From Selenomonadaceae bacterium (GTDB lineage Bacteria; Bacillota; Negativicutes; Selenomonadales; Selenomonadaceae): a stretch of DNA of 35,669 nt. Below are positions 1-35,669 of this stretch, piece by piece. Position 1 is the first letter of the stretch. The number at the start of each line of letters is the position of its first letter. A program made the translations under genes and the position numbers. The notes below the pieces were generated by a model. That model was not told the origin of the DNA. It saw only the letters and a list, made by a program, of their open reading frames with translations, and did not search any database. The stretch spans positions 1 through 35,669 of the forward strand of contig JAFZIV010000033.1 of assembly GCA_017554235.1 (NCBI GenBank), read 5' to 3'.

Positions 1-245
1 CCCCAAACATTGACAAAAATATACCTAGTGTCTAAAATGTACCTATCAGCGAGAACCAAGCTGAATAAAAAAGTTTTAATACCGGTGGCTCGCCGGGAAT
101 TCACGACTGTGGAGTGTTAAATAAACGTTAGTAGGTAAGCCGAGAACGGACACGATGAAGCAGTAAGACAGAATCGCGAGGTCTGTCCGATTCATCTTGA
201 CATGGACACAAAGGACTTTTGTCTACATGTGACTATGTTTTAAGT
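1..245 (+). mobile_element. Group II intron fragment (domains I-III), 3' truncated
   Basis: No protein is encoded here. The stretch around 85-235 has the look of the catalytic RNA of a bacterial group II intron: a CCGG..CCGG hairpin near 82-96, a conserved-looking segment at 110-150, a long nested stem (GATGAA paired with TTCATC, inner GACAG with CTGTC) resembling domain III, and a hairpin at about 200-230 (CATG..CATG) resembling the base of domain IV. Sequence and order match my memory of such introns; this is recognition, not an alignment. No intron-encoded reverse transcriptase, domain V or domain VI follows, so the copy is truncated near 245. A second intron of similar type begins at 35539 in the same orientation. 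The first 80 bases may also be intron domain I but are less recognisable. Confidence 0.55.
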
Positions 246-1825: not shown

Positions 1826-2734
1826 ATGATTTACACGGTAACTTTCAATCCTGCGATTGATTATATTATTCGTCTTGACAATTTTGAGACGGGCAAAATT
1901 AATCGCGTGACTTACGAGCAAGTACTCGGCGGCGGTAAGGGAATTAACGTTTCAATCGTGCTTGGCAACTTGGGACATAAGTCAACGGCGTTAGGTTTCC
2001 TTGCAGGCTTTACCGGCGAAGAAATTAAACGTCAACTTCGTACCTTCAACGCGGCTGATGATTTTGTACAACTCGACGAAGGTTTTTCGCGCATTAACGT
2101 AAAAGCTAAAGCCGATGTCGAAACTGAAATTAACGGTCAAGGTCCGAAAATCAGTGACGCTAAACGCGATGAACTTTTTGCAAAACTTGCCAAACTCGGC
2201 GAAGGCGATACTTTAGTTTTGTCAGGTTCAATTCCCAACACTTTGCCCGACGATATGTACGAAAGGACACTTGAGCCGTTACAAAATAAGGGCATTAGAA
2301 TTGTTGTCGACGCTGAAAAAGGTTTGCTCCTTAAAGTTTTGAAATTCCGTCCTTGGCTGATTAAACCCAATAATCATGAACTCGGCGATATGTTCGGTGT
2401 AAAACTTAAGACAAATGAAGAAATTGTCGAATATGCTAAAAAGTTGCAGGAAAAAGGCGCACGCAACGTTTTAATTTCAATGGCTGGCGACGGTGCAATT
2501 TTGTTGACGGAAGACGGAAAAGATTATTTTTCACCCGCTCCGAAAGGCAAATTGGTTAATTCGATTGGCGCAGGCGACTCAATGGTTGCAGGATTTATCG
2601 CTGGTTATAACGAATCAAACGGCGATTATCTTAAAGCTTTCCACATGGGTCTTGCTACAGGTTCGGCATCAGCATTTTCTGAAAATCTTGCGACACGTCC
2701 TGAAGTCGAAGCTCTGTTAAAGACACTCGAATAA
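1826..2734 (+). CDS. fruK: 1-phosphofructokinase (PfkB family)
   Basis: Phosphorylates fructose 1-phosphate, the product of the fructose PTS, to fructose 1,6-bisphosphate in the cytoplasm. The 302-residue protein has the PfkB-family pattern: N-terminal TFNPAIDYII, the first signature around GGGKGIN (35-41), and the ATP/catalytic motif NSIGAGDS near 245-252 with the predicted base Asp251. The start is ATG 1826, preceded by GGGGAGG at 1812-1817; an in-frame TTG at 1808 is upstream of the ribosome site and is rejected. PTS genes follow on the same strand, which fixes the substrate as fructose 1-phosphate rather than tagatose 6-phosphate, though that is inference from context. Confidence 0.93.
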   Translation: MIYTVTFNPAIDYIIRLDNFETGKINRVTYEQVLGGGKGINVSIVLGNLGHKSTALGFLAGFTGEEIKRQLRTFNAADDFVQLDEGFSRINVKAKADVETEINGQGPKISDAKRDELFAKLAKLGEGDTLVLSGSIPNTLPDDMYERTLEPLQNKGIRIVVDAEKGLLLKVLKFRPWLIKPNNHELGDMFGVKLKTNEEIVEYAKKLQEKGARNVLISMAGDGAILLTEDGKDYFSPAPKGKLVNSIGAGDSMVAGFIAGYNESNGDYLKAFHMGLATGSASAFSENLATRPEVEALLKTLE

Positions 2735-7743: not shown

Positions 7744-7780
7744 AAAAAAGCCCCTAACGGTTTAGGAGCTTAATTTTTTT
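7744..7780 (-). terminator. Terminator of clpX (bidirectional)
   Basis: AAGCCCCTAA (7748-7757) pairs with TTAGGAGCTT (7762-7771). On the - strand it is followed by TTTTTT; on the + strand by TTTTTTT, so it also serves the fruA side. Confidence 0.8.
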
Positions 7781-7794
7781 CGTTCGTTTAAAAA

Positions 7795-9027
7795 TTATTT
7801 CTTGCTAACCTTTACAACTGGTTCTTTATTTAAAAGTACGTCATCTTTTGTAATTGTGCAAACAGTACTTCCGCCGACTGACGGAATTTCAAACATAATA
7901 TTGCGCATAATTCTTTCAAGTATGGAACGCAGACCGCGTGCGCCTGTGTTACGTTGAATTGCCTCCCGCGCAATTAGTCTTAACGCCTCATCTTCAAAGA
8001 CCAGTTTAGCGTCGTCCATCTTCATAAGCTTTTTATATTGCTTAATCAGCGCGTTTTTGGGCTTTGTCAAAATGTCTACAAGCGCATCTTCGTTGAGTTC
8101 GTCAAGCGTTACGATAATCGGCAAGCGTCCTACAAATTCAGGAATAAGCCCGACGTTAAGCAAATCGTCCGGCATAACTTCACGCAAAAGTTTACTAACG
8201 TCTTTATCATGTTTGGAAGGTTGAGAAGTCCCGAAACCTAACTTGCTACCGTGCAGACGTTTTTCAATAACTTTATCAAGCTCATTGAATGCGCCGCCGC
8301 AAATAAAAAGTACATTCTTCGTATTGAAAGAAACCATTGCGGGCATAGGTTGATGATGATTGCCGGGAACGGGAACGTTGACGTTAGAACCTTCAATAAT
8401 TTTCAGAAGTGCCTGTTGTACTCCCTCGCCTGAAATATCGCGCGTCGTTCCGGCTTTACGCGCAATTTTATCAATCTCATCAATGTAAACAATGCCGCGT
8501 TCAGCTCGAATTATATCGCCGTTAGCGGCTTGAATCAGCGATGCAAGTATATCTTCAACGTCCTCACCGACATAGCCCGCTTCCGTCAAGGAATTTGCGT
8601 CGACAATCGTAAGCGGCACATTTAAAATTTTCGCCAACGTCTGCGCTAAAAGAGTTTTTCCGCTACCCGTCGGACCAATCATTAAGATATTAGATTTTTG
8701 AAGTTCAACTTCATCTTTCTTAGTTTTCGGCTGACCGATTCGTTTATAGTGATTGTAAACGGCAACAGACAAAGTTTTCTTAGCTTCCGCTTGTCCGATA
8801 ACGTATTGGTCGAGAATTGAGCAAATAGTTTTTGGTTTAGGAAGATTTTCCGCGCTGATTAAATCTTCGCCTTTATCTTCGGTGTCTAAAATTTCCGTGC
8901 AAAGTTTAATGCACCCGTCACAAATATAGACGCCGTCGGGTCCTGCGACAAGCCTTTCAACTTGACTGTCCGGCTTGCCGCAAAATGAACATTTGTAAAC
9001 TTTGGGATGACTCCCCAATTTTAACAA
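7795..9027 (-). CDS. clpX: ATP-dependent Clp protease unfoldase ClpX
   Basis: AAA+ unfoldase that feeds substrates to ClpP. 410 aa with TTG start at 9027 (AAAGGATGTGA upstream). N-terminal zinc-binding domain with Cys13, Cys16, Cys36, Cys39; Walker A GPTGSGKT at 118-125; Walker B IVYIDEID near 179-186. The ClpP-docking loop reads LGF (in SKLGFGTS) where most ClpX have IGF, a conservative change. It is the last gene of tig-clpP-(double zinc finger)-clpX on the - strand. The first 85 bases of the gene are strongly similar to the start of the neighbouring double zinc-finger gene, including the same TTG start and the first ten residues, [10 protein letters not shown]. Confidence 0.97.
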
Positions 9028-9069: not shown

Positions 9070-9471
9070 TTAAATTTTAGGATTTACGGTATCTTCTAAA
9101 ACTTCCAGACACAATTTAGTACACTTGCCACAAATGCAAACATTGTTTGAACCTGCGACAAGCTTTTCAACTTGACTTTCAGATTTTCCGCAAAACGAAC
9201 ATTTACAAACTTTCGTAGTACTTTTTAATTTAGGTTCGGAGTACTTTTGCGAATGATTAAAACTTGACTGCCATAAATCGTTATCCTTTTCTGAAGTTGC
9301 TGTAAGATTTTCGTCGTTAAGTTTTACATTTAAAAGTTCTGCGACCAGTTTAACGCACCTGTCACAAATATAGATGTCGTCGGGTCCTGCGACAAGTTTT
9401 TCAACTTGACTAGCGTCTTTGCCGCAAAACGAACACTGATAAACTTTGGGATGACTTCCTAATTTTAACAA
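9070..9471 (-). CDS. Orphan protein with two ClpX-type zinc-binding domains
   Basis: 133 aa made of two copies of the ClpX N-terminal C4 zinc-binding domain and nothing else: copy 1 has Cys13, Cys16, Cys36, Cys39; copy 2 has Cys91, Cys94, Cys114, Cys117. A Ser/Lys/Glu-rich linker (about 50-86) joins them. No AAA+ motor, Walker motif or membrane segment is present. TTG start at 9471 with GGAGTGA overlapping the clpP stop, 15 bases away. In ClpX this domain dimerises and recruits adaptors and some substrates (established for the E. coli family), so this protein could pair with ClpX, compete for adaptors or present substrates; that is inference. Copy 1 closely resembles clpX at DNA level and probably arose by duplication. 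I know of no named family of this layout. Confidence 0.88.
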   Translation of the reverse strand: MLKLGSHPKVYQCSFCGKDASQVEKLVAGPDDIYICDRCVKLVAELLNVKLNDENLTATSEKDNDLWQSSFNHSQKYSEPKLKSTTKVCKCSFCGKSESQVEKLVAGSNNVCICGKCTKLCLEVLEDTVNPKI

Positions 9472-9486
9472 GGCGCGTCACTCCAA

Positions 9487-10092
9487 TTAATTATCAGCAT
9501 CATTATTGACGGGACGGCTTACAACGTCATCAATCAAGCCGTAATCTTTAGCGTCCTGCGCAGTCATAAAGTTATCGCGTTCGGTATCAGCGACAACTTT
9601 TTCGCGCGGCTGTCCCGTATGTCTGCAAAGAATATCGTTGCCGACTTCGCGAAGTCTTAAAATTTCACGCGCTTGAATTTGAATATCAGTTGATTGTCCG
9701 CTTGCACCGCCCAAAGGTTGATGAATCATAATTCTTGCGAGCGGCAGTGCAAAACGTTTACCCTTAGTACCTGCGGTTAAAAGCAGTGAACCCATACTTG
9801 CCGCCTGTCCAATGCAAATTGTTGAAACGTCGGGCTTGATATACTGCATTGTATCGTAAATCGCAAGCCCGGCCGTTACAACGCCGCCGGGACTGTTAAT
9901 GTACAAGTGAATATCTTTATCGGGGTCTTCAGATTCAAGGAAAAGCATTTGCGCGACGATTGAGTTTGCAACGTCATCAGTAATAGGTCCGCCCAAAAAA
10001 ATTATTCTGTCTTTCAAAAGGCGTGAATATATATCGTAAGCTCTTTCGCCGTAACCTGTTTTTTCAATTACCATCGGAACATAATATGCCAT
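9487..10092 (-). CDS. clpP: ATP-dependent Clp protease proteolytic subunit
   Basis: Serine protease that forms the tetradecameric chamber of ClpXP. 201 aa, the normal family length. The catalytic triad is visible: Ser99 in GQAASMGS, His124 in IMIHQPLGG, Asp173 in TERDNFM. Start ATG 10092 with GAGGTGAC upstream. Lies between trigger factor and the double zinc-finger gene on the same strand, so folding, targeting and degradation genes are cotranscribed in part. Confidence 0.97.
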
Positions 10093-10208: not shown

Positions 10209-11654
10209 CTAAGAATCCGCGTTTTTGTCAACCGCTGATTCAACTTTTTCTTCAACGTCTGCAGATTTTTTATCCGCAACTTTTTCTTCAACATTCGCAA
10301 CTTTTTCGTCTGAAGTTTTATCTTCCGTCGAAGTTTCTGCAACTGCCGTATCGGAATTTTCCGCGCCCGCCATGTTGTCAAAAATAAACTGCATAGCTTT
10401 TTGATGACGAATATTTGACATTACGGTTTGAATTTGCCCATTATCTTTTAACGCCTTAACAATCTGCTTGGGCGTTGCACGGTAAAGGCTTGCCATACGC
10501 GCAATCTCCATATTAATATCAACGTCTGCAACTTCGATATTTTCAAGGCGTCCGACTTCTTCCAACATGAGATCCATGCGCAAATTTTTCTCGGCATCTT
10601 CGCGATAATCTTCACGAAGTTCATCAATCGTCCTGCCGCTACCCGCAAGATAAATTTCTAAATTCATTCCCTGCGCCTGCAAAGTTGCGTCAAGTTCATC
10701 AATCATAAGTTGTACGCGATTGTCAATCATAACCGGCGGAATATCGACTTTCATATTGTCAATAGCCTGTTGGACAACTGCTTCACGCTGTTTAACGAGT
10801 GCGTCACGTTCGTTCATAACTTCCAAATTCATTCGGATGCTTTTTTTGTATTCGTCGACGCTTTCAAACTTGCTGACTTTCTTAACAAATTCGTCATTAA
10901 GTTCAGGCAAAACTTTATGTTTAATGCTGTTAATTTTGCAATGGAAGACAGCGGGCTTTTCTGCAAGGTCTTTTGCGTGATAACCTTCAGGGAAAGTTAC
11001 TTTAACATCTTTTTCCTCGCCGACCTTCAAGCCGATAAGTTGTTCTTCAAAATTCTCAATGAAAGTATGCGAACCAATTTCAAGCGGACGATCTTTGCCT
11101 TCACCGCCGGCAAATTTTTCACCGTTGACAGTTCCGAGATAATCAAGCGTTATGAAATCGCCTTCGGCAACCGTATCGCCCTCTGCCGCAACGACCATTT
11201 CAGCATTATTTTCAAGGATATGTTTAATTTGTTTTTCAACGGCTTCATCGGTAACGGGTTCAACAACTTTTTCTGCTTCAAGTCCCTTGTATTCGCCGAG
11301 TTCGACTTTGGGATAGGGAGTATAAGTCAGCGTGAAAACGAAGTCTTTTCCTTCCTCTAAGGTAACAATATCAGGTTTCATTTCGGTCACGGGTACATAA
11401 GTCATCGTCTTCAAAACGTCATTTGCACCCTTGCGAATCAAAATTTCTGACGCCTCGTCCAAAATCGCGCCCTTACCAAAATACTGCTCCAAAATTTTTA
11501 CCGGCGGAACTTTTCCCTTACGAAATCCCGGGATACTTACGCGACTTGCAAGCTGTTTGCAAGCTTGTCCCTTTGTCTTTTCAAGCTCTGCCGCGTCAAA
11601 AGTTATCGTAGCCTCGCTTTCGTAATTATCTATGCTTTTCATAGTAATTTGCAT
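10209..11654 (-). CDS. tig: Trigger factor
   Basis: Ribosome-bound chaperone and peptidyl-prolyl isomerase that receives nascent chains. 481 aa: N-terminal ribosome-binding domain with FRKGKVPP near 44-51, FKBP-like isomerase domain at about 160-245 (GDFITLDYLGTVNGEKF onward), then the helical chaperone domain. After about residue 430 there is a Glu/Lys/Asp-rich low-complexity tail with repeated EEKVADK-like units that ordinary trigger factors lack, giving some extra length. Start ATG 11654 has GGGAGG 12 bases before it; a second in-frame Met follows four residues later. First gene of the clp cluster, and the tail may be disordered. Confidence 0.96.
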   Translation of the reverse strand: MQITMKSIDNYESEATITFDAAELEKTKGQACKQLASRVSIPGFRKGKVPPVKILEQYFGKGAILDEASEILIRKGANDVLKTMTYVPVTEMKPDIVTLEEGKDFVFTLTYTPYPKVELGEYKGLEAEKVVEPVTDEAVEKQIKHILENNAEMVVAAEGDTVAEGDFITLDYLGTVNGEKFAGGEGKDRPLEIGSHTFIENFEEQLIGLKVGEEKDVKVTFPEGYHAKDLAEKPAVFHCKINSIKHKVLPELNDEFVKKVSKFESVDEYKKSIRMNLEVMNERDALVKQREAVVQQAIDNMKVDIPPVMIDNRVQLMIDELDATLQAQGMNLEIYLAGSGRTIDELREDYREDAEKNLRMDLMLEEVGRLENIEVADVDINMEIARMASLYRATPKQIVKALKDNGQIQTVMSNIRHQKAMQFIFDNMAGAENSDTAVAETSTEDKTSDEKVANVEEKVADKKSADVEEKVESAVDKNADS

Positions 11655-14577: not shown

Positions 14578-14676
14578 AAGTAAATCTGCTAAAATATTAT
14601 TCTGACGATAAAAGTTTGAGAATTTTTTAACGATAAAATTGGTAGTTGATTTTTTATGAGGAAAGGGGTTTTTTAT

Positions 14677-17600
14677 ATGAAAAATTTTAATTTCGACCTT
14701 CAGCGGTTTAAAGATTTTAACAATACGGTTTCTGGAGTTGTCATAACGGGAACTGCGAACAGTGATTCAATTTCAAACGGTAAGTACAGTTATTCTTCTA
14801 TCGGCTCAAACGTGACGATTAACGCACTTGGCGGCAATGATTCCATTGATAATTATGCTTCAAATGTAACTATAAGCGGCGGAGCAGGCAACGATTACAT
14901 TGAAAATATTGAAGGCGAGAAAGCAACGATAAGCGGAGGTGACGGCAATGATACAATCCGTAATATCTTAGCAAAAGGAACAACGATAAACGGTGGCACG
15001 GGTGACGATAAAATTTCCAATTATTATGGCAAAAACGTAACAATAAGTGGCGGAGAAGGTAACGATTCCATTGAAAATTGGGGTGACAGCGTAACGATAA
15101 GTGGTGGATCTGGCGATGACACTATCTATATTGATATGTACCATTCAGTAGCAAGTGTTTACGAATACAATACAGGTGATGGCAATGATGTTATTCTTGG
15201 ATTTAAATCTAACGACACATTGCTTATCAACGGTACTCGTAAAAAAATCACAAAAGAAAATGACGGTGACATAATCATAGGTGTCGGCAGTAATGCTATT
15301 ACCATTAAGAATTACATGATGTATAATTACACAAGTGACACAGTGATAATCGGTACTGCCTATGCTGATTCAATTTCCAATTCTTATTCTGGCTCAAATG
15401 TGACGATAAGTGGCGGAACAGGCGATGATACTATTTACAATTATTGCGACAACGTGACGATAAGCGGCGGTGATGGCAACGATAGAATTTACAATAATAG
15501 CTCAAAAAAAGTAACGATAAACGGTGGCACGGGTGACGATTACATTTCCAATAATGGCGATAAAGTAACGATAAGCGGCGGCACTGGTGATGATACAATT
15601 TCTCTTTCAATTTCCGCTTCTCTTAGCTTTATTGAGTATGCAAAAGGAGACGGAAACGACCTCGTTCAAGGCTTCCAAGATAGCGACACGTTGATAATCA
15701 GCGGCACAACTTACAGCACCGCAAAGAGTGGCAGCGACGTAATTGTTACTGCGGGTTCAGGCAAAATTACATTGCAGGACGCGGCTACCCTTTCAAATTT
15801 AAATATACAAGGTGCTTTTTCAGAAAATAATTCGGGCGGTGGAGTTAATGTCCTCAATAATCTTTCAAATGTTCTAATTAGCGGTACTGATAAAGCCGAT
15901 TCTATTTGGAACAATGCCGGCGTTAATAACGTTACCATTAATGCCTACGCAGGTAATGATACAATTAAATCTTGGGGCAGTTACAATTACATTGATGCAG
16001 GTTCTGATGACGATTACATTTTCCATTTTCCTGCAAACTCGACCATTCACGCCGGTACAGGTAATGATACCGTTTCGCTTTACAGTTCCTCCTCCGCAGG
16101 CGATGTTATCACTTATACCAGTGGCGACGGCAACGACCTTATTCAAAGTTTTAAAACTAAAGACACGTTGATTATCAGCGGCACGACTTACAGCACATCT
16201 AAAAGTGGCAACGACGTAATTGTTACGGCAGGTTCAGGAAAAATTACTTTGGAAGGCGCGGCTAGCCTTTCGTCGATAAAAATCAAAGGAACTGTCGGCG
16301 GCGGTAGTGATACAGGTTCGAGCGGTAAAGATACGACTCCCAGCGGCAAGAATATCAGCAACTCAAAAGCAAGTACTTTGATAACCGGCACGGCATACAA
16401 TGACACGATTAAAAATTCATCCGCGCAGGTTACCATTCAAGGCGGCGACGGTAAAGATAAAATTTCGCTGACCAGTGCGGCTAAAAACAACGTCATAATT
16501 GGCGGAGCGGGTAACGATTCAATATATAGCAGTGTAACAAGCGGTGTACTTTACAAATACGCAAAAGGAGACGGCAACGATTATATCAAAGGTTGGACTG
16601 CTAAAGATACGTTGTCAATCATAGGCGGCGCGTATAAAACTTCCACGACAGGAAACGATGTTTTAGTCAGCATAACAGGCGGAGAAAAAATAACTCTTGC
16701 AGGGGCAAAGAGTAAAACTATTAATATCAATCCTTCGTCAAGTTCAACGGTATCGTCAAGCGGCAAGAATATCAGCAACTCAAAGGCAAGCACTCTTGTA
16801 ACTGGTACGGCTTACGCTGACACGATTAAAAATACTGCCGCGCAGGTTACCATTCAAGGCGGCGACGGTAAAGATAAAATTTCTCTTTCCAGTGCGGCTA
16901 AAAATAACGTCATAATCGGCGGAGCTGGTAACGATTCGATATATAGCAGTGTTACAAGCGGCGTATTGTACAGTTATGCGAAAGGTGACGGCAACGATTA
17001 TATTAAGGGCTGGACGGCTAAAGACACGCTGACTATTACCGGCGGCGCGTATAAAACTTCCACGACAGGAAACGATGTTTTAGTCAGCATAACAGGCGGC
17101 GAAAAAATTACTCTTGCCGGTGCTAAAGGTAAGACGGTTAATATCAATCCCTCTTCGACTACTACGGTATCGTCAAGCGGCAAAAATATCAGCAACTCAA
17201 AGGCTAGCTCTCTTGTAACGGGAACAGCTTATAACGACACTATCAAAAATACAGCCGCGCAGGTTACCCTTCAAGGCGGCGATGGCAAAGATAAAATTTC
17301 GCTGACCAGTGCGGCAACGAAGAATGTGATAATCGGCGGAGCTGGTAACGATTCGATATATAGCAGTGTAACAAGCGGTGTACTTTACAGTTATGCGAAA
17401 GGTGACGGCAACGATTACATTAAGGGTTGGACTGCTAAAGATACGTTGACTATTACAGGCGGCGATTACAAAACTTCTGTATCCGGCAGTAATGTCATTG
17501 TCAGCATAACGGGCGGAGAAAAAATTACGCTTGTCGGAGCGAAGGGCAAAACCTTAAATATCAATCCTTCGCCGGTTGATGATTTAGATGTCGTCGGAAC

Positions 17601-19287
17601 GTCGGGCGATGATAAAATTAACAATGTGCTTGCAGGTGCAACAATCAGCGCGATTGCCGGAAATGATTCCATAACCAATAGCGGCGCGAATGTTTACATA
17701 GATGGCGGCGCAGGTACAGATAAAATTACAATCACAAGTTCGGCTAATAAAAATACCGTCAAGGGCGGCAAAGGTAACGACACAATTTACAGTAGCAATG
17801 AAAATGTAATGTACCTGTACGCTTCAGGAGACGGCAACGATGTTATTCACGGCTTTGGAACTTCCACACTTAATATCACGTCGGGCAGTCTTGGTAGCGC
17901 GTCGGTAAATGGCGATGACGTTATCTTAAAAGTCGGTTCTTATACAATTACTTTGAAAGATCAAGTCGATTCAGAGATAAATTACAAAGTTGGAAGTGGT
18001 TCTGTAAAGTCAACCGTTGTAAGTTCGGAAAATGAACTTATTAAAGAAGGCACAGACATCGCGGATAATCTGCCGAATAACACGAATCAAGCTACTATAA
18101 GCGGTCTTGGCGGTTCAGATAAAATCACCAATTCCGGCAACAGCGTTTCGATTTCCGGCGGCGCAGGACACGATACAATAAGTAATTTCGGAACAGACGT
18201 TACTATTAGAGGTGACGCCGGTAACGATAGTATAATTACAAGCAACAGCGGCACATTCATTGACGGCGGTGCTGACAATGATACCATAAGATTGACAGAA
18301 GATGTTTTTAACGCGACAATTAAAGGCGGTACCGGTAATGATGTTATTCACCTTAACGATAACCCACAACTGATACAGTACAAAAAAGGTGACGGTAAGG
18401 ATACAATTTTTGGATTTAGTGATGGCGATTCCGTTAGTGTAACATCAGGAAAAATTCGTGATGATTACGGAGATAACGGCTCAAATACTGTTTTCTACAT
18501 TGATGATGGAACGAACAATGCGATAATCTTTAGAAACACTTCAAAGGAAAATTTCCAGATTGAGAATAACGTAATAACGTTTTCTGAGTCACGAATAATA
18601 ACCCTTAGTGGTTATACGGATAAACCGGATAATAAATCAAACAGTATTTCATTAGCGGTAATAAAGGCACTTGGCGGTAATGACACGATTAAAAATACAG
18701 GTAGCCTCGTTACAATTTATGGCGGCGAGGGCAACGATAAAATCAGCTTGGGCAGCAGTGCAGAAAATAACACGATATACGGCGGATTGGGTAACGATAC
18801 CATTTACAGTAATGGTAAAGGAAATTGTATTAAATACGCGGCTGGAGACGGCAACGATACCATTTATAGCTTTAGCGGGACAGATTATATAGAGATAACG
18901 AATGGACAAATTGTCTCAGTAGTTTCTGATTTATCTGATAAGAAGTTCTACATTAACGATAAAACGCATTTCATAACAGTTAAAGACGGTACGTCAAAGA
19001 ATTTCAAAATCGAAGATAATGTAATTAGTTTGGAACAAGGTTCGGATTTTTCATCAATGATTGATAACACGTCAGATATAAGTTATCTTTTTGCGGACAA
19101 CAATTTCGAGACTGGCGAATTGCAAATTGATTCCATAACCGAGATTAGCGACATAAACTACAGCGTAGGTAAGCTTGAAAATGCAGAGATTGTCAGCAGT
19201 GTCACTAACGATAAAATTTCAGTAGAGGTAACGTCGGCTTTGCCAACTTCCGCAAACAGAATGATTTTTGATAAATCGAACAAGTAG
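14677..19287 (+). CDS. Large RTX-like calcium-binding repeat protein
   Basis: Probably a secreted or surface protein of 1536 aa, exact role unknown. The N-terminus MKNFNFDLQRF has no signal peptide but resembles the start of many Selenomonadales repeat proteins (recognition). Most of the chain is beta-roll sequence with many GGxGxDxI nonapeptides (for example GGAGNDYI and GGDGNDTI), the signature of haemolysin-type Ca2+-binding repeats typical of type I secretion substrates. Residues about 556-970 hold three near-identical 139-aa units. The last 20 residues before the end duplicate the C-terminus of the upstream YacL-like protein. ATG 14677 has GAGGAAAGGGG upstream; an in-frame ATG 14656 is rejected because it precedes that site. 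No transporter gene is nearby. Confidence 0.85.
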   Translation: MKNFNFDLQRFKDFNNTVSGVVITGTANSDSISNGKYSYSSIGSNVTINALGGNDSIDNYASNVTISGGAGNDYIENIEGEKATISGGDGNDTIRNILAKGTTINGGTGDDKISNYYGKNVTISGGEGNDSIENWGDSVTISGGSGDDTIYIDMYHSVASVYEYNTGDGNDVILGFKSNDTLLINGTRKKITKENDGDIIIGVGSNAITIKNYMMYNYTSDTVIIGTAYADSISNSYSGSNVTISGGTGDDTIYNYCDNVTISGGDGNDRIYNNSSKKVTINGGTGDDYISNNGDKVTISGGTGDDTISLSISASLSFIEYAKGDGNDLVQGFQDSDTLIISGTTYSTAKSGSDVIVTAGSGKITLQDAATLSNLNIQGAFSENNSGGGVNVLNNLSNVLISGTDKADSIWNNAGVNNVTINAYAGNDTIKSWGSYNYIDAGSDDDYIFHFPANSTIHAGTGNDTVSLYSSSSAGDVITYTSGDGNDLIQSFKTKDTLIISGTTYSTSKSGNDVIVTAGSGKITLEGAASLSSIKIKGTVGGGSDTGSSGKDTTPSGKNISNSKASTLITGTAYNDTIKNSSAQVTIQGGDGKDKISLTSAAKNNVIIGGAGNDSIYSSVTSGVLYKYAKGDGNDYIKGWTAKDTLSIIGGAYKTSTTGNDVLVSITGGEKITLAGAKSKTININPSSSSTVSSSGKNISNSKASTLVTGTAYADTIKNTAAQVTIQGGDGKDKISLSSAAKNNVIIGGAGNDSIYSSVTSGVLYSYAKGDGNDYIKGWTAKDTLTITGGAYKTSTTGNDVLVSITGGEKITLAGAKGKTVNINPSSTTTVSSSGKNISNSKASSLVTGTAYNDTIKNTAAQVTLQGGDGKDKISLTSAATKNVIIGGAGNDSIYSSVTSGVLYSYAKGDGNDYIKGWTAKDTLTITGGDYKTSVSGSNVIVSITGGEKITLVGAKGKTLNINPSPVDDLDVVGTSGDDKINNVLAGATISAIAGNDSITNSGANVYIDGGAGTDKITITSSANKNTVKGGKGNDTIYSSNENVMYLYASGDGNDVIHGFGTSTLNITSGSLGSASVNGDDVILKVGSYTITLKDQVDSEINYKVGSGSVKSTVVSSENELIKEGTDIADNLPNNTNQATISGLGGSDKITNSGNSVSISGGAGHDTISNFGTDVTIRGDAGNDSIITSNSGTFIDGGADNDTIRLTEDVFNATIKGGTGNDVIHLNDNPQLIQYKKGDGKDTIFGFSDGDSVSVTSGKIRDDYGDNGSNTVFYIDDGTNNAIIFRNTSKENFQIENNVITFSESRIITLSGYTDKPDNKSNSISLAVIKALGGNDTIKNTGSLVTIYGGEGNDKISLGSSAENNTIYGGLGNDTIYSNGKGNCIKYAAGDGNDTIYSFSGTDYIEITNGQIVSVVSDLSDKKFYINDKTHFITVKDGTSKNFKIEDNVISLEQGSDFSSMIDNTSDISYLFADNNFETGELQIDSITEISDINYSVGKLENAEIVSSVTNDKISVEVTSALPTSANRMIFDKSNK
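16342..17592 (+). repeat. Three tandem 417-bp repeats inside the RTX-like gene
   Basis: Units begin at 16342, 16759 and 17176, exactly 417 bases (139 codons) apart, each starting with codons for SGKNISNSKAS. The copies are nearly identical at protein level; the third diverges near its end. In-frame recombination could change copy number without breaking the gene. Confidence 0.9.
19216..19275 (+). repeat. Direct repeat copy B (3' end of the RTX-like gene)
   Basis: Matches 14453-14512 at 54 of 60 positions by eye, in the corresponding reading frame. The two copies are 4763 bases apart and bracket the RTX-like gene. Confidence 0.85.
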
Positions 19288-19443: not shown

Positions 19444-19522
19444 TGCGCCAAAATTTTTTGACTTAAATAAAACGTAAACTGAAAGTTAGACGAAAAGATT
19501 TTTATAGGTGGTGAAAAAAAGT

Positions 19523-21844
19523 ATGACGAATATAATTGAAACAGTGAGTCTTCCGCTTGTACCTCTGCGCGGCGTAACTGTTTTTCCAAATATGATAATG
19601 CACCTTGACATTGGGCGAGAAAATTCCATTAACGCATTGGAAGCGGCAATGGTTGCTGACAGAAGAGTTTTTTTAATCGCACAAAGAGAGGCTGACGACG
19701 ATAACCCGACGCAAGAAGATTTATATACAATCGGAACTCTTGCCGAAATTCGACAGATTATAAAAATTCCCGACGGTAATGTTAGAGTTTTAGTTGAAGG
19801 CGTTAATCGCGCAGTGATGACTGATTACCGCGAATTTGAAAATTATGCTGAAGCTGATATTGAAGTTCACGAAGACGCTTGGAAAGATTCTCTGCAACTT
19901 GAAGCACTCGTCAAAGGTGTTGTCCATGAGTTTGAAGAGTGGGTTAAACTTAGCAAGCGTATTCCCGCCGAAACTTTTATTGCAGTCACAATTCTTGAAG
20001 ATATTGGACGACTTGCAGATTTAATTACAAGTCATTTGAATTTAAAATTGGAGTCGCGACAGGAACTGTTAGAGGCACTTGACGTTGAAGACAGGCTTGA
20101 AAAATTATATGCGATTTTAGCGCGTGAACTTGAAGTACTTCAAATGGAAGTGCAAATCAATCAGCGAGTGCGCGGGCAGATTGAAAAAATTCAGAAGGAT
20201 AGTTATCTGCGCGAACAGTTACGGGCGATTCATAAAGAATTGGGCGAAGATGAAGACGTTTCTGAAACTTCGGCGGAATATCGTAAAAAGTTGGATGAAG
20301 GCGATTACCCCGACGAAGTTCGCGAGATTGTCCTAAAAGAACTTAGTAGAATGGAACGCTTGCCGACAATGGCGCAGGAGTCCGGCGTAATTCGCACCTA
20401 CATTGAATGGCTTTTTGATTTACCGTGGAGAATTTCTACCGAAGATTCCAACGACATTGTGAAGGCGACGAAAATTTTGGACGCGGATCATTACGGCTTG
20501 GAAAAAGTTAAGGATCGCATTTTAGATTTTCTTGCCGTAAAAGTTTTGACGAAAGATAAACCTGCTCCAATTTTGTGTTTGGTAGGACCGCCCGGCGTAG
20601 GTAAAACTTCTTTGGCGTCCAGTGTCGCTAAGGCTATGGATAGAAAATTTATTCGTGCGTCACTCGGCGGCATACGTGACGAGGCGGAAATTCGCGGGCA
20701 TCGTAGAACTTATGTAGGCGCAATGCCCGGACGAATTATTCAAGGTATTAAAAAAGCTGGCGCAAATAATCCAGTCTTCCTTCTTGATGAAGTTGATAAA
20801 CTCGGCAAAGACGGATACAGCGGCGATCCTTCGTCGGCGTTGCTTGAAGTACTCGACCCTGAACAGAATAACACTTTCACTGACCATTACATTGATACGG
20901 CGTTTGATTTATCCCGCGTGCTGTGGATTGTTACGGCGAATAATCTTTCGACGATTCCAAAACCGTTACGTGACAGAATGGAAGTTATAACTTTATCGAG
21001 TTATACCGAGCATGAAAAATTAGAAATTGCTAAACGTTATTTGACTAAGCGGCAAAAAGAAAATAACGGCTTGAAGACAGGAGATTTGGTTTTCGCTAAA
21101 GGCGTTTTGCAAGAAATTATTTCCGAATATACGCGCGAAGCAGGCGTCCGTGAACTGGAAAGAATTATCGGGCGTGCTTGTCGAAAGGCGGCGCGAAAAA
21201 TCGTTGAAGGTCACGAAGGCACTGTTTACGTTACGAAAAAAAATCTGCGCGACTTTTTAGGGCGTCCTAAATATCTTCAGAATAAAGCCGAAAAGCAACC
21301 GCAAATTGGCGTATCAACGGGCATGGCGTGGACGGAAGTCGGCGGTGATATTTTACCAACTGAAGCGATTATTCTTAAAGGTAAAGGCAAACTTTTATTG
21401 ACGGGACATTTGGGCGACGTTATGCAGGAGTCCGCGCAGGCTGGTTTGACTTACATTAGGAGTCGCAGTGACTTAATGCAACTTGACGATGATTTTTATG
21501 AGAAAAATGATATTCACGTTCATGTGCCTGAAGGTGCTGTGCCGAAAGACGGACCAAGCGCGGGTATAACGATGGCAACGGCAATGATTTCTGCTTTGAC
21601 AAAAAGAAAAGTTCGCAGTGATGTTGCAATGACAGGTGAAATTACTCTGCGCGGAAATGTTTTGCCGATTGGCGGACTTAAAGAAAAAGTTCTTGCCGCG
21701 TATCGTGAGGGTATGAAGACAATTATTTTGCCAAAAGAAAATGAACGTGATATTGAGGACATTCCCGAAACTGTCCGCGAAAAATTAGAATTTGTACCCG
21801 TTGAGCATATGGACGAAGTTTTAAAGACAGCTTTGTTGCCATAA
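19523..21844 (+). CDS. lon: ATP-dependent Lon protease
   Basis: Cytoplasmic AAA+ protease for misfolded and regulatory proteins. 773 aa from ATG 19523 with AGGTGGTG nine bases upstream; the in-frame GTGs at 19508 and 19511 overlap that site and are rejected. LON substrate-binding domain at about 8-205, coiled region, AAA+ module with Walker A GPPGVGKT (355-362) and Walker B VFLLDEVD (418-425), and the protease domain with catalytic Ser679 (PKDGPSAG) and Lys720 (GGLKEK). Standard bacterial LonA layout and length. It is 7.9 kb from tig on the opposite strand, not in the clp operon. Confidence 0.97.
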
Positions 21845-35225: not shown

Positions 35226-35538
35226 TTGCGGCTTTACATTGCCGAAAAGCCGAGTATGGCACGGGAAATTGCCGCGTGTTTGAAAAATCCAAAGCAAGGT
35301 AAAGGTTACATTGAAACGGATGGCGGAGTTGTGACGTGGCTTTTTGGTCACGTCCTCCGTCAAGTTGAACCTGATGCTTACGACGCGAAATATAAAATTT
35401 GGCGGCTTGAAGACCTTCCTATTGTTCCGCAAATTTGGAAGTTGGAAGTTGAGCCGAAAGCCGCCGAACAATTTAATGTTGTCAAAAATCTTATTCGTAA
35501 AGCTGATGAAATTGTTCACGCAGGAGACCCCGACCGCG
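35226..35538 (+). CDS. topB: DNA topoisomerase III, 5' exon (interrupted by group II intron)
   Basis: Type IA topoisomerase, N-terminal part only. TTG start at 35226 with GAGGTGA (35213-35219); 28 bases after rpoC. The protein begins with the Toprim motif LYIAEKPSMA, continues through WLFGHVLRQ and EIVHAGDPDR, then is cut at the first base of the codon after GDPDR, where the family has Glu (GDPDREGQ). From 35539 the DNA is group II intron. Splicing would restore the reading frame; without it only about 104 residues plus a short intron-encoded tail (ending at 35576) are made. The downstream exon is outside the window. Confidence 0.85.
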
Positions 35539-35669
35539 GTGCGACTTGTTCAGTAATGAAAAGTTACTGCGCCTAACAAAGGCGAACTGATAATTTGAAG
35601 AGTGGAAAGAAGGAGTAACGCCCTGAAACGCTCTACCTAATACTCCGACTGGCGGGTAACCGTCAGAAG
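35539..35669 (+). mobile_element. Group II intron, 5' end (domain I), incomplete
   Basis: Starts with the group II 5' consensus GTGCGAC at 35539. Local folds fit domain I: CAGTAA/TTACTG (35551-35569), GGAGT/ACTCC (about 35611-35648), and CTGGCGG-GTAA-CCGTCAG near 35649-35667. The orientation matches topB transcription, as required for splicing. The remaining domains, the reverse transcriptase and the 3' exon lie beyond the window edge. The insertion sits in the Toprim DxD motif of topB. Confidence 0.8.

Follow-up and report, generated by a model that had tools for sequence, protein, structure and literature searches.

Introduction

Among the closest described relatives of the protein reported here is the N-terminal zinc-binding domain (ZBD) of ClpX (zf-C4_ClpX, PF06689; solved as 1ovx and 2ds5-2ds8). 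According to two reports, this domain can form dimers by itself and serves as the docking site for adaptors and trigger factor (PMC9035409, PMC7804408), and the second also describes ClpX mixtures with fewer ZBD dimers, in which lambda O was degraded faster, up to a point. Free ZBD inhibits RssB-dependent turnover of sigmaS by ClpXP in vitro and cross-links as a dimer, as stated in a third report (PMC7226468), and isolated ZBD binds XB-peptide fusions with a KD of 35-82 nM in a fourth (PMC12373786). Cyanobacterial sigma factors carry zf-C4_ClpX as an accessory domain, according to one further report.

The window analysed here, that is, the whole stretch of 35,669 nucleotides, contains an ORF, called dz, whose product belongs to the same family as the ClpX domain and shares its zinc ligands and its leader (phmmer 2.7e-9 against 1ovx). 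Unlike ClpX, dz carries two copies of the domain in one chain, lacks the AAA+ module and is encoded by a separate gene. McsA, a small zinc protein whose gene lies with that of a Clp ATPase in the ctsR operon, contains a UVR motif and acts on McsB/ClpC. Both McsA and dz are small zinc proteins encoded with a Clp ATPase; the UVR motif is absent from dz, in which Pfam recognizes zf-C4_ClpX alone at E 0.001. Viral proteins of phrog_6797, 12435, 5259 and 20296 resemble dz in matching the ClpX zinc domain, in short profiles, but they contain one domain with other flanking parts, whereas the window copies group with host ClpX. Tandem proteins in the phylum of Olsenella (loci L208, L209, L210 and L211) share with dz two zf-C4_ClpX domains and the absence of AAA+. 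In contrast to dz, they do not lie beside clpX in the stretches examined, and the linkers of L210 and L211 are shorter than that of dz.

Results

Structure of the dz locus

The genes on the minus strand are arranged in the order tig, clpP, dz, clpX, with the following features.

9070-9471, minus strand: double zinc-domain ORF (dz), 133 aa, TTG start; ORF and Pfam
9439-9471, minus strand: dz leader of 11 residues, same in ClpX; translation and blastn
9328-9438, minus strand: zinc domain 1 (d1), CSFC...CDRC; zf-C4_ClpX, 62.6 bits
9205-9327, minus strand: polar linker separating both Pfam matches; translation and Pfam
9094-9204, minus strand: zinc domain 2 (d2), CSFC...CGKC; zf-C4_ClpX, 54.7 bits
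7795-9027, minus strand: clpX, 410 aa, zinc domain at 8884-8994 and AAA+ module; Pfam
9487-10092, minus strand: clpP, directly upstream of dz; named by eye from the translation
10209-11654, minus strand: tig (trigger factor), upstream of clpP; named by eye from the translation
7748-7771, minus strand: terminator-like stem and T-run downstream of clpX, where the operon may end; consensus scan only

The gap between clpP and dz is 15 bp and that between dz and clpX is 42 bp; judged from this spacing, clpP, dz and clpX are probably cotranscribed. The consensus scan placed a weak terminator-like site within dz (9395-9377, minus strand), a motif that occurs again within clpX (8951-8933), as well as several promoter-like sites on the minus strand around dz. 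Over both strands, the scan gave 8 terminator-like sites against 5.5 expected and 16 promoter-like sites against 9.1 expected.

Pfam recognized zf-C4_ClpX alone in dz, in two stretches (whole protein E 2.6e-31, 107.6 bits), and no AAA family. Within the genome from which the window comes (2.27 Mb, 94% complete), the domain was matched three times, once in clpX (E 1.5e-19) and twice in dz (d1, 1.0e-16; d2, 2.9e-14), all above the curated Pfam cut-off of 27 bits. Both C4 motifs of dz are complete, with four Cys ligands per domain and eight in total. Against the ClpX equivalog models TIGR00382 and NF003745, dz scored 64.7 and 68.4 bits, below their cut-offs of 370.75 and 359. Lacking both such scores and the AAA+ module, dz is not a full-length ClpX; it is a free-standing tandem of two zf-C4_ClpX domains. 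These results bear out the sequence-only reading of this DNA, which had described a free-standing double ClpX zinc-domain protein between clpP and clpX, with all eight Cys present and the AAA+ module absent.

Several other features were recorded in the window. A lon gene, named by eye, lies about 10 kb from clpX on the opposite strand (19508-21844, plus strand). A 1543-aa ORF (14656-19287, plus strand) contains many GGxGNDxI-type repeats, with FNFDLQRF near its start. RAGATH-18 RNA was matched at 106-166 (plus strand, 68.2 bits). At 35582-35669 (plus strand; Rfam RF02004, 75.2 bits) a group II intron begins, which the end of the window truncates. The ORF right before this intron (35226-35576) appears by eye to be the front of a topoisomerase III gene.

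Recurrence within the genus

The zf-C4_ClpX domain was found in 62 of the 66 genomes of the genus that were searched, and more than once in three of the 66: three matches each in the window genome and in G024, and two in G064. All three carriers have the extra ORF placed between clpP and clpX. Whether such proteins recur at this site had been raised as a question by the sequence-only reading; an extra ClpX-type domain occurs there in 2 of the 65 other genomes of the genus. The extra ORF of G024 (127 aa) has two ClpX-type domains. That of G064 (125 aa) has one, together with a second CxxC...CxxC domain which is unrecognised by Pfam and in NCBIfam weakly resembles YacG (E 0.0004, a score below the model's cut-off). 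The placement between clpP and clpX was seen in this genus alone. An assembly or chance artefact was considered and dismissed, because the copies have diverged from clpX and both G024 and G064 have similar genes in the corresponding position.

The clpX region was taken from the 62 genomes with a match (the window and 61 loci). A clpP match lies upstream of clpX in 59 of them, and more than one ClpX-type motif is present in the three carriers alone. In the 56 other loci that have clpP, 13-447 bp separate the end of its match from the clpX start. No zinc-domain remnant was seen by eye, in three frames, in the clpP-clpX gap of 12 of these 56 loci or in 500 bp upstream in the three loci without clpP. 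The extra domain is absent from L082, L110, L111 and L114, the four nearest relatives of the window. Altogether, 63 of the 66 genomes, four of which also have no clpX match, are without it, and its function, if any, is therefore dispensable.

Some of the loci differ in other ways. In G024, lon (by eye) follows clpX (L066, 8683-11019). The clpP-clpX gap of L081 (G023) holds a different ORF, which by eye resembles a four-helix S23-type protein, and the gaps of L110, L111, L116, L119, L120 and L123 contain translated pieces that look similar by eye, perhaps a dispersed intergenic repeat.

The conservation of individual residues was compared at 14 positions that are at least 95% invariant in 62 ClpX proteins of the genus. 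Of these, d1 keeps 13 and d2 keeps 12; the domains of G024 keep 11 and 13, and the ClpX-type domain of G064 keeps all 14. In d1, a Cys outside the ligand set is changed to Val, and in d2 Tyr is changed to Cys and Asp to Gly. As d2 is without the invariant Tyr and Asp, docking in the manner of ClpX may fail.

Origin of the copies

In blastn comparison with the clpX 5' end, d1 shows 83% DNA identity over 141 bp from the start codon and d2 71% over 177 bp. The d1 protein is 67% identical to the domain of its own ClpX, its best match among the 67 other domains compared, in agreement with the closeness to the ClpX N-terminus that had been claimed. The leader is identical in dz and ClpX, as had also been noticed, but it has 11 residues, not ten.

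A protein tree was built from 67 zinc domains over 51 columns, with the divergent second domain of G064 left out. The d1 and d2 domains of the window grouped with the window's own ClpX domain (98/99.9), and placement of the five extra ClpX-type domains in one clade was rejected (p-AU 0.0124). In a ClpX tree without the zinc domain, which has many weak forks, the three carriers are scattered. Since the extra domains do not form one clade and the window pair goes with its own ClpX, it is more probable that copies arose locally several times (or were converted) than that they descend from a single old gene. A single orthologous gene with many losses is disfavoured by the same test, but the alignment has 51 columns, branches are long and gene conversion mimics this outcome. 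Independent partial duplications of clpX appear the best fit, although the same picture would result if clpX had converted an older copy. It is probably clpX that was duplicated to give dz, and of the origin suggested by the sequence-only reading the derivation from the local clpX stands.

The order of events within dz was also considered. In the protein tree d1 and d2 pair with each other (96/84), and the codon model described below prefers the same arrangement; the DNA tree is poorly resolved, with end branches of 0.21 (d1) and 0.54 (d2). At synonymous sites d1 is nearest to clpX (dS 0.49), and dS between d1 and d2 is 1.4. In G024 it is d2, not d1, that lies nearer to ClpX.

Selection on the copies

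A codon model (GY94 with two branch classes, the ClpX tree as backbone) was written for this analysis. On the best of four topologies, ((d1,d2),ClpX), w was 0.30 for the window copies versus 0.054 for ClpX; w = 1 was rejected (p = 0.0007), and so was equality with ClpX (p = 0.0008). The log-likelihoods of the other three topologies were 6.9 to 8.4 lower. With d1 joined to ClpX (8.4 lower), w = 1 was not rejected (p 0.067), nor was it with d2 outside the clade (6.9 lower; p 0.26); with the d1+d2 pair outside the clade it was rejected (p 0.0066). The G024 copies gave w 0.27 (p 0.019 versus w = 1; p 0.18 versus equality with ClpX), and the G064 copy gave w 0.64 (p 0.53 and p 0.15, respectively). 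In a neutral simulation of one domain, frame and Cys were both kept in 1.0% of cases at 0.3 changes per site and in 0.14% at 0.5. A pairwise dN/dS of 0.46 for d1 versus ClpX was set aside, because this value mixes both branches. Taken together, the codon model gives moderate support for constraint on the window copies, which depends on the topology. The sequence-only reading had named the lack of any relative with intact Cys, or decay of the ORF, as what would speak against it; relatives with intact Cys exist, and dz is free of signs of decay.

Free-standing ClpX zinc domains elsewhere

A survey of the class covered 380 genomes, 363 with a match and 13 with more than one. Eleven of these 13 (G000 and G024 aside) were rescanned, together with two genomes with short frames. 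In G247, G249 and G258, which belong to another genus of the same family, a stand-alone frame of 130-132 aa with one ClpX zinc domain was found elsewhere in the genome, and in G252 the domain is split over two frames. The second matches of G215, G288 and G354 fall below the cut-off, and G240 apparently has one clpX, interrupted where contigs end. Additional ClpX paralogues, diverged but of full length, were seen in G120 (L144) and G131 (L146, L151, L153 and L154), four of them in the latter.

With a profile of the three double proteins, 398 sampled genomes of the phylum yielded no other tandem among the matches listed, in which dz scored 204 bits, its own clpX 80 and the next match 68.5. Among the matches listed, six genomes of the phylum had a second one (G000 and G249 aside): a single-domain frame without AAA+ in four, a second ClpX in one and a single Pfam match in one. 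From the genome contig collection, 42 loci were obtained; 41 were classed by pattern, all as AAA+ ClpX, and L026 is unclassed. For dz, 10 records came from the phage collection and 5 from the plasmid collection, and the matches in all 15 span 201 bases at most.

Tandem forms were encountered in the phylum of Olsenella, to which L024 belongs, where 114 of 119 sampled genomes had a ClpX zinc-domain match. At least four of the 119 (G779, G793, G787 and G808) have tandem ClpX zinc domains without AAA+ according to Pfam, a lower bound that rests on eight stretches from seven genomes. A further match lies in a clpX-sized frame on another contig in G779, G787 and G808, and none in G793. Tandem frames of 99 aa (L210, 1702-1998, plus strand; L211, about 1964-2260, minus strand) in two genomes have a cysteine desulfurase and an A-type Fe-S carrier nearby (neighbours named by eye). 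In a 349-aa frame (L209, 1237-2283, plus strand), two ClpX zinc domains come after a Clp_N domain, again without AAA+.

Among 26 loci on viral contigs, some of which may be host DNA, 12 encode a stand-alone single ClpX zinc domain and 12 an AAA+ ClpX, and two are unclassed (L179 and L191); tandem ClpX zinc domains were absent from the 24 classed loci. At least four PHROGs (6797, 12435, 5259 and 20296; profiles of 65-121 positions) are short families with the ClpX zinc domain; one of them bears the label protease, and no role is given for the rest. In L172, L189 and L213 the zinc domain is joined to a C-terminal helix-turn-helix-like part (PHROG match for L172; the others by eye).

In a literature search that covered few subscription papers, the titles and abstracts among the matches listed made no mention of a free-standing ClpX zinc domain. 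The sequence-only reading knew of no described family with the layout of dz. This statement has to be narrowed, in view of the single stand-alone forms on viral contigs, in three genomes of another genus of the family and in four of the six rescanned genomes of the phylum, and of the tandems in the Olsenella phylum. The dz layout is real, local and rarely conserved, and its placement is unusual; free-standing ClpX zinc domains as such are already known.

Discussion

A plausible reading, which we prefer tentatively, is that dz, encoded in the same operon, may mimic the N-terminal docking domain of ClpX and so tune the docking of adaptors. The clpP-dz-clpX message would be translated to give dz at a level near that of ClpX, and dz would fold as two zinc domains. 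Since the ClpX domain naturally dimerises, two arrangements are conceivable for the covalent pair: its halves would join into a preformed docking dimer, or they would associate with zinc domains of ClpX. In both cases dz would act in trans on the docking of adaptors and substrates. As a soluble decoy, dz would draw adaptors (or trigger factor) off ClpX, and as a partner it would leave fewer free ClpX dimers on the ring. The expected outcome is a tuned substrate choice of ClpXP, with adaptor-independent degradation untouched. Doubled forms recur, both here and in another phylum; the linkage of two domains may therefore be important, as would suit a domain working as a dimer. To our knowledge, no adaptor has been described for this organism.

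Alternatively, dz might itself be an adaptor, with one zinc domain pairing with ClpX and the more diverged one binding a client for ClpXP. The unequal divergence of the two domains, d1 being near ClpX and d2 without two invariant residues, is consistent with such a role, and the different CxxC...CxxC domain in the second half of the G064 protein is what a one-dock, one-grip design predicts. However, no client of dz is known, and in G024 d2 is the nearer to ClpX, so that the domains do not divide the work in a constant way in the three carriers; we regard an adaptor as rather improbable. It is also conceivable, and in our view unlikely, that the 5' ends of clpX in this genus keep duplicating locally and that the copies linger without use. 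Their rarity (3 of 66 genomes), their apparently separate origins and the faster protein change of the window copies than of ClpX (w 0.30 versus 0.054, p = 0.0008) would all agree with idle by-products, as would the fact that w = 1 was not rejected on two of the four topologies or for G064. Yet each of the five ClpX-type copies has an intact ORF and all its Cys, a combination seldom kept in the neutral simulation; the argument from intact copies is in turn weakened because a search by profile and Cys pattern favours them.

A connection with phages was weighed as well, in which dz would be a zinc-domain decoy taken from, or directed against, phage proteins that use ClpXP. In its favour, small proteins with a free-standing ClpX zinc domain are encoded at 12 of 26 viral-contig loci and are represented in at least four PHROGs. 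Against this, the window domains group with host ClpX, no phage gene was recognized by eye among the neighbouring ORFs, and the best PHROG, phrog_6797, is not covered whole, its best stretch (56-102 of 107) being the zinc part alone. It seems, then, very improbable that dz is of phage origin or anti-phage in function.

Under the docking-domain mimic that we prefer, a broader and doubtful conjecture may be put forward: in one genus, and always in the same position, the clpX 5' end would have become a separate double-zinc gene on two or perhaps three occasions at the least count of two, because a covalent docking pair produced in amounts like those of ClpX is a useful rheostat for adaptor-dependent proteolysis, and phages would use the same trick with single domains. 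The mimic itself is testable with purified parts, since one adaptor pathway is already known to be inhibited by isolated zinc domain (PMC7226468). If dz does act in this way, the docking domain of ClpXP would have given rise to a regulator of the machine, encoded in its own operon, and this would suggest why free ClpX zinc domains persist in bacteria and phages.
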